From: an uncultured bacterium
GTDB taxonomy: Bacteria > Cyanobacteriota > Vampirovibrionia > Gastranaerophilales > Gastranaerophilaceae
Length of the DNA: 48,074 nt
Assembly (NCBI GenBank): GCA_947073645.1
Contig: CAMTMK010000014.1
Coordinates: forward strand, 1-48,074
Direction: 5' to 3'
The position numbers and the translations under genes are program-made. Position 1 is the first letter of the stretch, and each line of letters opens with the position of its first letter. Of this stretch, positions 27,142 through 30,034 are shown in pieces. A model generated the notes under the pieces. That model searched no databases. It was not told where the DNA came from and worked only from the letters and a program-made list of their open reading frames with translations.

Positions 27142-28018
27142 AATAGCGATTACTACGGGTGATCCTAACGGGATTGGCGCAGAGATTACGATAAAGGCTT
27201 TGAACAAGCTTTCTCCTGAAAATGTCATATTGATATCTAATCGTAAGGTTTTAGATTTTTATGGAAAACTAAATAAGGATTATGAGATAATTGAAATTCC
27301 TTATGATGTTGAAGTTGCGCCGGGGAAAATTACAAAAGAAGCGGGCGAATTTTCATTCCAATCAGTGAAAAAAGCCTGTCAAATAGGAGCAAAAGCTATA
27401 GTTACCGCTCCCGTTGCTAAAAACGCATTATATCTTGCAGGACATAAATTTAACGGGCAGACTGAAATTTTACAAAAATATCTGGCGCGTGATGGACAGC
27501 TCGCCGAAATGCTTTTTGTTGCAGGCGGTTTTAGAGTTTTGCTTTTGACGCGTCATGTTGCCTTGAAAGAAATTTCTTTATCAAAAGAAATGGTTGTTGA
27601 GAAAATTTCTAATTTAAAAAACTTTTTTGTTTCGCATCTTGGAATAAAAGAGCCAAAATTTGCACTGTGTGCGTTTAATCCTCACGCGGGCGAGGATGGA
27701 ATCTTAGGACGTGAGGAAATTGAAATTTTACAGCCTGCGGTTGATAAGTTGCGTGCGTGCGGGGTAAATATTACAAATCCGCTTCCTGCTGATACTTTGT
27801 TTGTAAAAGCTCTCGATTATGACTGCTGTATTGCAAACTATCACGATCAGGGGTTAATCCCGATTAAAACAGTTGCCGGTGATAAGACTGTTAATATGAC
27901 AATCGGTTTGGATATAATAAGAACCTCACCGGGACATGGAACTGCATTTGATATTGCAGGGAAAAACATTGCGGATGAAACAGGCATGATAGAAGCGATA
28001 AAAGCTGTATTAGACTAA
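27134..28018 (+). CDS. pdxA: 4-hydroxythreonine-4-phosphate dehydrogenase (PdxA/PdxA2)
   Basis: NAD-dependent oxidation of 4-hydroxythreonine 4-phosphate in pyridoxal phosphate synthesis, or of a threonate/erythronate 4-phosphate for PdxA2. The 294-residue protein is somewhat shorter than the E. coli enzyme. Motifs are TTGDPNGIGAE (7-17), GHKFNGQTEIL (H104, substrate), TRHVALKEI, NYHDQGLIP (H237) and SPGHGTAFDIAG (H268); the last three supply metal ligands. It overlaps the kinase gene by 8 bases, which favours a linked kinase-dehydrogenase pathway. Confidence 0.9.
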   Translation: MNKIAITTGDPNGIGAEITIKALNKLSPENVILISNRKVLDFYGKLNKDYEIIEIPYDVEVAPGKITKEAGEFSFQSVKKACQIGAKAIVTAPVAKNALYLAGHKFNGQTEILQKYLARDGQLAEMLFVAGGFRVLLLTRHVALKEISLSKEMVVEKISNLKNFFVSHLGIKEPKFALCAFNPHAGEDGILGREEIEILQPAVDKLRACGVNITNPLPADTLFVKALDYDCCIANYHDQGLIPIKTVAGDKTVNMTIGLDIIRTSPGHGTAFDIAGKNIADETGMIEAIKAVLD

Positions 28019-28701
28019 AATTTATAATCAGATTGCAACTGCCAGTTATCATATTGAAATAGAGCTCCACAATATGCACCCGATTTAGTTTTGTTACACC
28101 CATGACCTGCACCGTTTAGGAGTGTGTTTCTTGGTAATCCATGCCCATAAAAATACACCCCCGCTACTTTAATATTATGAAAACTGTCATTAAATGCTCC
28201 TGGAGTTATGGTTAGAACAAAGTTATCAATACCATATTTGTCCGGTCTTTTATTACCATTTACATCACAATAAATATGTAAATGTTTATTGTCTTGTTTT
28301 CTGAAAGCTATGTAAGTACCGTCAGCAAGTTGAATTTTATAAAAGGATGATGTTTTTATTTGCTCTTCGTATGTTCCATTTAATCCGTATATAATTCCGT
28401 TAGAATTCCAACAACCGTTAGAAGTTTTACAGTTTTTAGTAATATTTAAATTTTTCAAAAGATAAGTTTCAACAAACTGTTGCAAATTTAAATCCCAGTT
28501 CCAATATTGGAGTTCACCATTTTCAATAGTAGTTTGATTGATATTTTGAGAAAATATTGAATATAATTTTTTAGCTCTAGATATATTTACTTCTCTTTGA
28601 TGTGTAGAGATAAGTGTAGGTATTGTAATTGCAGAAACAACACCTATAATCCCTAGAGTTATTAAAATTTCTGCTAAAGTAAAAGCGGTTTTATAATTCA
28701 T
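28015..28701 (-). CDS. Type IV prepilin-like protein
   Basis: A 228-residue relative of the genes at 6676 and 1111. It begins MNYKTAFTLAEILITLGIIGVV, with cleavage expected before FTLAE. The soluble domain has IQLADGTYIAF and the motif CDVNGNKRPDKYGIDNFVLTI, the form of which (acidic residue, NG, K, P, G, D) suggests a conserved loop, perhaps for calcium. Five cysteines (NCKTSNGCW, HIYCD, HGCNK, YCGA) may form disulfides. AGGAG is 7 bases upstream. The gene ends by overlapping pdxA by 4 bases on the other strand and is divergent from an XRE regulator. Confidence 0.88.
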   Translation of the reverse strand: MNYKTAFTLAEILITLGIIGVVSAITIPTLISTHQREVNISRAKKLYSIFSQNINQTTIENGELQYWNWDLNLQQFVETYLLKNLNITKNCKTSNGCWNSNGIIYGLNGTYEEQIKTSSFYKIQLADGTYIAFRKQDNKHLHIYCDVNGNKRPDKYGIDNFVLTITPGAFNDSFHNIKVAGVYFYGHGLPRNTLLNGAGHGCNKTKSGAYCGALFQYDNWQLQSDYKF

Positions 28702-28712
28702 CTATGTCTCCT

Positions 28713-28742
28713 ATCCAAATGTCTCGTACGAGACATTTGGAT
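28713..28742. promoter_or_regulatory. Perfect 30-bp palindrome between prepilin and XRE genes
   Basis: The left half reads ATCCAAATGTCTCGT and the right half is its exact reverse complement, with no spacer. It begins directly beside the prepilin ribosome binding site (28708-28712) and ends 25 bases before the XRE start, so it occupies the centre of the divergent control region. A -10 for the XRE gene (TATAAAT, 28754-28760) would put its -35 in the right half. It is probably the operator of the XRE regulator; in the prepilin mRNA the same sequence could fold into a hairpin that hides the ribosome binding site. Confidence 0.85.
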
Positions 28743-28767
28743 TTATATTAACATATAAATTGAGTTT

Positions 28768-29037
28768 ATGCAAGCTTCAAAAATCAAAAAAAATGAAGAA
28801 ATATGTAAACTTCTTGGCGAAGTTGTACAAGAATTGAAAGGTAAAAAGAAAAAATCAATTCTTGCTTATGAAAGTGATTTACCAAGAAGTGTTGTTTATT
28901 ATATTTTAGAAGGTAAAAAAGATCCTCAGCTTACTACACTATGGCGATTGGCATTGGGTTTAGATATGAGACCATCTGAACTTTTAAAGATTATTGAAGA
29001 TAGAGTAGAAGGTGGTTGGGATTCATTTTTAGATTAA
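28768..29037 (+). CDS. XRE-family helix-turn-helix regulator
   Basis: An 89-residue single-domain DNA-binding protein. The helix-turn-helix runs from about 29 to 52 (KKSILAYESDLPRSVVYYILEG) followed by KKDPQLTTLWRLALGLDMRPSELL, the pattern of the XRE family. The ATG has no ribosome binding site and lies about 8 bases after a TATAAAT box, so a leaderless or nearly leaderless mRNA is likely. It is divergent from the prepilin gene across a 30-bp palindrome, its likely operator. Its sequence differs from the XRE protein at 7437, so the two cassettes are not recent copies. Confidence 0.87.
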   Translation: MQASKIKKNEEICKLLGEVVQELKGKKKKSILAYESDLPRSVVYYILEGKKDPQLTTLWRLALGLDMRPSELLKIIEDRVEGGWDSFLD

Positions 29038-29067
29038 AAAAAAGACCTCATAAGAGGTCTTTTTTTT
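29036..29067. terminator. Bidirectional intrinsic terminator
   Basis: GACCTC and GAGGTC pair around ATAA, flanked by long A- and T-runs, between the XRE stop and the secF stop. It shares the GACCTC/GAGGTC core with the terminator at 7654 behind the other XRE gene. Confidence 0.92.
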
Positions 29068-30034
29068 ATGCTGTTTGTTGTTTATCGTTCCAAAAATCGA
29101 CTAACATACTGCAGAAGAATATACTTGAATATGTTCCGATTGCAATACCGAGTATCATACACAGTACAAAATCTCTTGTTGTTACACCGCCCCACAAGTA
29201 TAGTGCAAGCAATGTAATCAATGTTGTTAGTGATGTATTGATACTTCTTGTTAATGTTTGGTTTACAGAAGCATCAACGATTTCACCGAATGACATTTTT
29301 TTAGAGTAATATCTTAAGTTTTCTCTAATTCTGTCAAATACAACGATTGTATCGTGAACTGAAAAACCGATTACAGTTAAGATTGCCGTAATAAACAAGC
29401 CGTCGATTTGGACATTGTAAACAAGTCCTAAAATTGAGAATGCGCCGACAACGAAGATTACATCGTGAAATACACCTAAAATTGCAGCAAGCGCATAATC
29501 AAATCTAAATCTGAATGAAAGATATGCAACAATTCCTAAAAATGCAAGAGTTACTGCAATTAATGAGTTTTTGAATAATTCTTTACCCATTGTAGGACCT
29601 ACTGAACTTACTGAAATTAATTCAGGGTTGTCATAGTTTCTGGTCAAGCATTCTGTAATTTTGTCAGCATCATCAGAACCTTCTTCGATAAATTTTGTTC
29701 TGATAGAAATTATTGAATTAATATTTGATTTAGTGTTTTCTTGTTGAGTGTTATTAACGTTAAGGATTTGAATGTAAGGGTTTTCAACGCCAATACCTTC
29801 CAAAGCTTCTCTTGTTTTTGTCACGTCACTGTTTTCAAGTTTTTGTTCCAAGCCGTATTGTAAAATAGTTCCACCTGTATAGTCGATACCGACTTTCAAT
29901 GGTGCGTGGTTAGAATATGTCACTGCGGAATAAATCATTGCAATGATACCGGGAACCAATAGTATGGTTGTCAAAAGCATCCACCACCATCTGTATTTTA
30001 CGACTTTTACTTTATGTGTTGTTAAATTTATCAT
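29066..30034 (-). CDS. secF: Protein translocase subunit SecF
   Basis: The 322-residue membrane protein has six predicted helices and a large first periplasmic loop (LKVGIDYTGGTILQYGLEQ). The conserved helix-4 motif is GFSVHDTIVVFDRIRENL, and RSINTSLTTLITLLALYLWGG follows. SecF works with SecD to pull exported proteins across the membrane using the proton gradient. It starts 9 bases after the secD stop. Confidence 0.96.
   Translation of the reverse strand: MINLTTHKVKVVKYRWWWMLLTTILLVPGIIAMIYSAVTYSNHAPLKVGIDYTGGTILQYGLEQKLENSDVTKTREALEGIGVENPYIQILNVNNTQQENTKSNINSIISIRTKFIEEGSDDADKITECLTRNYDNPELISVSSVGPTMGKELFKNSLIAVTLAFLGIVAYLSFRFRFDYALAAILGVFHDVIFVVGAFSILGLVYNVQIDGLFITAILTVIGFSVHDTIVVFDRIRENLRYYSKKMSFGEIVDASVNQTLTRSINTSLTTLITLLALYLWGGVTTRDFVLCMILGIAIGTYSSIFFCSMLVDFWNDKQQTA

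Follow-up and report, generated by a model that had tools for sequence, protein, structure and literature searches.

The divergent XRE-prepilin locus

Within the window, as we call the whole 48,074-nucleotide stretch of DNA that was analysed, a prepilin-like gene and a gene for a small XRE-type regulator are transcribed away from each other across a 66-bp gap (28702-28767), which runs from the prepilin ATG (28701, minus strand) to the XRE ATG (28768). An earlier note on this DNA had described an exact 30-base palindrome without a spacer inside this divergent region, and an inverted-repeat search located it at 28713-28742, with arms of 15 + 15 bp (ATCCAAATGTCTCGT/ACGAGACATTTGGAT). Its contact with the prepilin Shine-Dalgarno was likewise confirmed, the minus-strand AGGAG directly abutting the palindrome. 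The proposed overlap with the XRE -35 held only in part: the palindrome spans the place where a -35 would be expected, but no -35-like hexamer is evident there. The flanking genes are ones that we take to be pdxA-like, secF-like and secD-like, having named them by recognition of their sequences and not by family search. The features of the locus are:

28015-28701, minus strand: divergent prepilin-like gene, 228 aa, with N_methyl signal and DUF6613 (open reading frame, domain search)
28708-28712, minus strand: prepilin Shine-Dalgarno AGGAG (sequence)
28713-28742, no strand: perfect 30-bp palindrome, proposed XRE operator (inverted-repeat search, unique in genome)
28720-28735, no strand: conserved operator core TGTCTCGTACGAGACA, centre 40.5 bp before the XRE ATG (ortholog comparison)
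28744-28749, minus strand: candidate prepilin -10, TAATAT, weak (sequence; family minus-strand -10-like hexamers near -23)
28745-28750, plus strand: alternative XRE -10, TATATT (sequence)
28749-28754, plus strand: alternative XRE -10, TAACAT (sequence)
28756-28761, plus strand: predicted XRE -10, TAAATT, -12 to -7 from the ATG (inferred for the window gene from the family-wide pattern)
28768-28773, minus strand: candidate prepilin -35, TTGCAT, over the XRE start codon (sequence)
28768-29037, plus strand: XRE/Cro-CI type regulator, 89 aa, single HTH domain (open reading frame, domain search)
29035-29068, no strand: terminator-like hairpin between the XRE gene and the convergent secF-like gene (hairpin and terminator pattern searches)

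The palindrome is a genuine, non-chance feature. Spacer-less perfect palindromes with arms of at least 12 bp number three, the window's included, in the 426 kb made up of the window and 19 control stretches from related genomes, and the 30-bp sequence is single-copy in its own 1.71-Mb genome with up to three mismatches allowed. A search of the same genome for further sites found no second one at up to two mismatches and three at three mismatches, the same as the control count (three); a genome-wide regulon was rejected on this ground. An extra copy of the half-site, ATGTCTC, lies at 28704-28710, between the palindrome and the prepilin start.

The XRE protein

The window XRE matches HTH_26 with 22.2 bits, against a cut-off of 22, and HTH_3 was found in 48 of 50 XRE relatives at E 0.01. 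The best solved structures for the family profile (A2) were C.BclI (1.5e-11) and C.AhdI (1e-9); the window protein alone gave 0.0075 against C.AhdI, and its predicted fold was poor (mean pLDDT 60). It had no match among 50,697 phage records and none in viral contigs, and a phage origin was rejected for that reason. No toxin partner was found for the window XRE, its next downstream gene being the convergent secF-like gene, and no restriction or methyltransferase gene was recognised in the compared flanks of the window and its orthologs.

Conservation of the core among XRE orthologs

Eleven orthologous loci were compared (the window, L032, L033, L034, L035, L036, L037, L038, L039, L059 and L004), additional loci of one genome being counted once. 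Among the relatives of the XRE locus that bear a name are metagenome-assembled genomes of Candidatus Gastranaerophilales / Melainabacteria, which places the window in this group or near it. Most orthologs share a common locus between the pdxA-like and secF/secD-like genes, with L004 and L059 located elsewhere. The earlier note had proposed that the palindrome is a DNA operator and had counted its absence from orthologous spacers towards a refutation. For the XRE gene the operator reading is supported, since 10 of the 11 loci have the core TGTCTCGTACGAGACA in a common position, its centre some 40 bp ahead of the XRE ATG. In six of them (the window, L032, L035, L036, L037 and L059) the 16-bp core carries one mismatch or none. 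The core is degenerate yet recognisable in L033, L034, L038 and L039, which counts against the operator reading, as does L004, whose XRE is 74% identical and which has neither palindrome nor prepilin. When 383 related genomes were scanned, sites with at most one mismatch numbered six, every one before an XRE ortholog, and two-mismatch sites numbered 11, of which 10 were given a locus and none of these adjoined an ortholog.

At the shared locus the prepilin is present, interrupted or missing. Both XRE and core are intact in L036, from which the prepilin is absent, and the site therefore belongs to the XRE gene. In L039 the XRE is broken, the prepilin absent and the core degenerate; the XRE ortholog of L008 / L039 is split over two frames. 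The outer arms of the window and L032 palindromes differ at three positions on both sides, yet each palindrome is perfect over 30 bp. These paired changes, seen in two cases, could stem from selective pressure on the arms or from a copying process that makes palindromes perfect.

Proposed operators across the XRE family

To cover the wider family, XRE genes were gathered from one similarity search of 191 genomes, from stretches around 60 more matches, and from named and own-genome loci. This gave 103 loci and 106 genes, or 102 once identical upstreams were removed; loci without a retained XRE gene include L120, L123, L125 and L126. Because likeness to the window XRE was the basis of the sampling, the genes are not independent. 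The rule used to pick start codons preferred ATGCAA and similar, which favours both a high number of ATGCAA starts (80 of 102) and a fixed spacing.

A palindrome with at least 8 out of 10 positions paired and its centre between -43.5 and -38.5 relative to the ATG was present in 47 of 102 XRE upstreams versus 4 of 383 controls; as the window is one of the control stretches, its own XRE is among these controls. By this strict test a strong palindrome is missing from about half of the family, which counts against the operator reading. The operator sequence varies with the XRE protein subfamily, while the spacing is constant:

Subfamily PRSVV: TGTCTCGTACGAGACA
Subfamily STSLL: ATCACGTTCGTGAACGTGAT
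Subfamily PSSV: CTATCGCGTNCGCGATAG
Subfamily SKSIW: TGTTCT...AGAACA
Subfamily KTTI: TTGGACATAATTATGTCCA
Subfamily SSSL: TATTACTAATTAGTCATA
Subfamily QKS: GTTCTATATATAGAA

In a Mantel test on the 76 of 102 genes with at least 7 out of 10 palindrome pairs, operator similarity was correlated with similarity of the recognition helix (partial r 0.15, with 0 of 999 permutations as high) and more strongly with that of the rest of the protein (partial r 0.37), the latter counting against a helix-only code. Taken together, the two correlations support the view that XRE and operator evolve together, with no code confined to the helix. In SKSIW-type and related XREs (L014, L096, L077, L108) a palindrome at -21.5 accompanies or replaces the one at -42.5, the two positions being about 21 bp apart.

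The predicted XRE promoter

Promoter counts were made on the 82-84 XRE genes that remained once similar upstreams had been removed. Base composition before the XRE starts revealed a -10-like element at -13/-12, with G almost absent from -12 to -8. A -10-like hexamer starting at -14 to -11 was present in 75 of 82 XRE genes versus 69 of 329 controls, and a Shine-Dalgarno core in 0 of 82 versus 109 of 329. Given the position of the -10 and the missing Shine-Dalgarno, a transcript starting at the ATG fits, and promoters of the XRE family look leaderless in type; the window XRE transcript is predicted to start at or beside the A of its ATG. Matches to a TTGACA-like -35 were below background at spacers of 14-19 throughout the family, where the right half of the operator lies, and this depletion held for subfamilies whose operators differ greatly. 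A centre near -41 combined with a missing -35 is the usual geometry of an activator that touches RNA polymerase.

The divergent prepilin gene

The window prepilin scored 23.6 bits with PF07963 in the genome search, over the cut-off, and 20.1 in another search, under it; with TIGR02532 it scored 18.0, over the cut-off of 16.3. Its promoter is not placeable, because hexamers like the candidate -10 and -35 are also common at loci where no prepilin was found, which counts against them.

A divergent prepilin lies within 250 bp of 35 of 102 XRE genes versus 4 of 391 control genes (43 of 102 versus 7 of 373 by a looser motif test), and 17 of 40 rough XRE clusters have a prepilin-linked member. Across 31 prepilin pairs the operator centre is 39.5-42.5 bp from the XRE start (sd 1.1, the centres having been sought only from -44.5 to -37.5) and -29.5 to 94.5 bp from the prepilin start (sd 21); the value of -29.5 probably comes from L097, where the prepilin start was likely called too far upstream. 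As to the earlier suggestion that one operator serves both genes, the over-representation of divergent prepilins makes sharing with the pilin gene likely, but the site is fixed to the XRE start and is kept in the prepilin-less L036.

Since other genes also occur as divergent partners of the XRE family, prepilins are common but not exclusive in this role. At five loci (L010, L016, L017, L029, L061) the XRE is divergent from a non-pilin gene beginning MKFLVRKAPENFIRTVNDEISSLL, and at three (L028, L070, L087) from a gene with a LLDLDGV(L/I)NTY-like start. The window's own genome contains 71 N_methyl matches in 1.71 Mb, mostly separate frames of 200-300 aa, and this prepilin set is unusually large. 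Two weak XRE-like matches in the same genome, C35:4163-4381 (E 0.02) and C11:60669-60860 (E 0.06), lie back-to-back with prepilin matches.

The window prepilin shares 31-34% identity with the prepilins of L033 and L038, which occupy the same locus, and of L059, which lies elsewhere, and it matches that of L032 over 52 residues only. The XRE, pdxA-like, secF-like and secD-like genes of the shared locus, by contrast, have 64-95% identity with their window counterparts. By this comparison the prepilins are changing faster than the neighbouring genes. In a different genus, prepilins that are 51-62% identical stand opposite XREs from two subfamilies with only 30-34% identity and different operators. 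From this divergence and mismatch of partners, regulator and pilin look like exchangeable parts.

Interpretation of the palindrome

Comparison of sequences establishes the site, its conservation, its exclusive link to this XRE gene, its fixed spacing, a leaderless-type promoter and an excess of divergent prepilins, and very probably the adjacent 89-aa XRE protein binds at the palindrome. An XRE dimer would bind it with one subunit per half-site and cover the -35 region of the promoter of its own gene, which is predicted to be leaderless and whose -10 suits a transcript that begins with the ATG. With no -35 box and a centre at about -40.5 this would be an activator-type site, so that self-activation at low protein levels is favoured, as in restriction-modification controller proteins. 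The same dimer would sit just before the prepilin Shine-Dalgarno, on the start of the prepilin transcript, and would block the prepilin. We regard this explanation as a whole, with an XRE operator at its own leaderless promoter, self-activation favoured and the prepilin blocked, as probable. The window XRE very probably belongs to a large family of self-controlling switches of these gut bacteria, often back-to-back with a pilus-like gene.

The alternative that deserves most weight is plain negative autoregulation, in which the XRE dimer represses both its own and the prepilin promoter and the missing -35 merely reflects occupancy by the operator. Simple XRE repressors with palindromic operators are common, and the operator does span the -35 region of the XRE promoter; but -35-like hexamers are below background at working spacers across very different operators, and a repressor-only promoter without a -35 would still need a means to fire. 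We consider this reading possible, if somewhat doubtful. That a regulator other than the neighbouring XRE binds the site seems very unlikely, as the site is single in its own genome, near-exact copies elsewhere occur only beside XRE orthologs, and differing XRE subfamilies have differing sites at the same spacing.

A further suggestion of the earlier note was control of pilin translation by an RNA hairpin, which here would form at the start of the prepilin mRNA. A strong fold is indeed predicted for the window (z -5.3) and L032 (z -4.5), and the three differences between their outer arms leave these paired. Among five prepilin leaders folded, however, predicted energies ranged from -19.4 kcal/mol in the window to -3.4 kcal/mol in L006, which was no better than shuffles and has no hairpin, and the hairpin of L059 is weak. 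The window Shine-Dalgarno is left unpaired, L036 retains the site without a prepilin, and the distance is variable to the prepilin start and fixed to the XRE start. What is conserved is a sequence at a fixed DNA position, and RNA-hairpin control was rejected since the fold is not conserved; we judge it very unlikely. An intrinsic terminator or repeat element is more improbable still. There is a plus-strand match to a terminator-like pattern, but its tail, TTATATTAAC, has no run of T, and the palindrome, flanked by genes that diverge from it, occurs once in the genome and has a core conserved in sequence; the pattern match being all that spoke for it, the terminator was rejected.

Likeness to known regulators

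The system most resembles the controller (C) proteins of type II restriction-modification systems. In the passages available from PMC4824078, C proteins have a palindromic C-box in their own promoter, activate and then repress it, and are made from leaderless transcripts; those from PMC4824078, PMC6237814, PMC3695507 and PMC3874152 between them describe such C-boxes, activation followed by repression, and hysteretic behaviour. According to PMC6237814, the high-affinity site of EcoRV lies across the methyltransferase promoter and represses it. Like C.BclI, C.AhdI and C.Esp1396I, the XRE is a small single-domain HTH protein (C proteins being the best structure matches of its profile) with a palindromic operator in its own promoter just upstream of its gene, and the position of the -10 and the missing Shine-Dalgarno predict a leaderless-type promoter for its family. 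Some relatives in other subfamilies, L014 and L096 among them, have paired operators with centres at -42.5 and -21.5, a separation of about 21 bp, like the OL/OR of a C-box. Unlike C proteins, the window system and its orthologs are flanked by no recognised restriction or methyltransferase gene, the core is not the GACT-tat-AGTC C-box quoted in PMC4824078, the gap holds one operator and no tandem OL/OR pair, and the family's partner is often a prepilin. The lack of restriction genes, the different core and the single operator mean that the window system, while resembling C-protein controllers in its working, is not one of them.

Cro/CI-type phage repressors (P22 C2, the ICEBs1 repressor) share the XRE fold, a palindromic operator at the -35 region and possible self-activation, for which lambda CI at PRM is the familiar comparison, but the window XRE has no phage context and its flanks are housekeeping genes. 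The XRE antitoxins HipB and HigA are also small autoregulating XRE DNA-binding proteins, with distant sequence similarity to the XRE family, but the window XRE has no toxin partner in its operon.

A bolder extension, which we put forward as speculative and on balance unlikely, is that among the dozens of prepilin genes in these bacteria many each have a private flip-flop, not cross-reacting with the others, in which a C-protein-like self-activating regulator shuts the divergent pilin through one operator. If so, conserved regulators next to fast-changing pilins would let each pilin be switched on and off independently, and a gut lineage could vary its surface combinatorially with no DNA rearrangement. 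For such gene-by-gene switching of an unusually large prepilin set nothing was found in the parts of the literature searched, nor anything closer on pilins or regulators of this bacterial group; PMC5877343 mentions pili genes in the group, with no such switch in the passages available. The related regulators, with differing operators at one spacing, also form a natural series useful for learning how XRE DNA specificity changes.

A minor observation concerns the prepilins of L032 (-934 to -31 from the XRE), L027, L033 and L100, which have additional N-terminal sequences that are repeat-like by eye (for example AFTLAEGATHV and KILKRVQDD), as if dispersed repeats had been inserted at the signal peptide.
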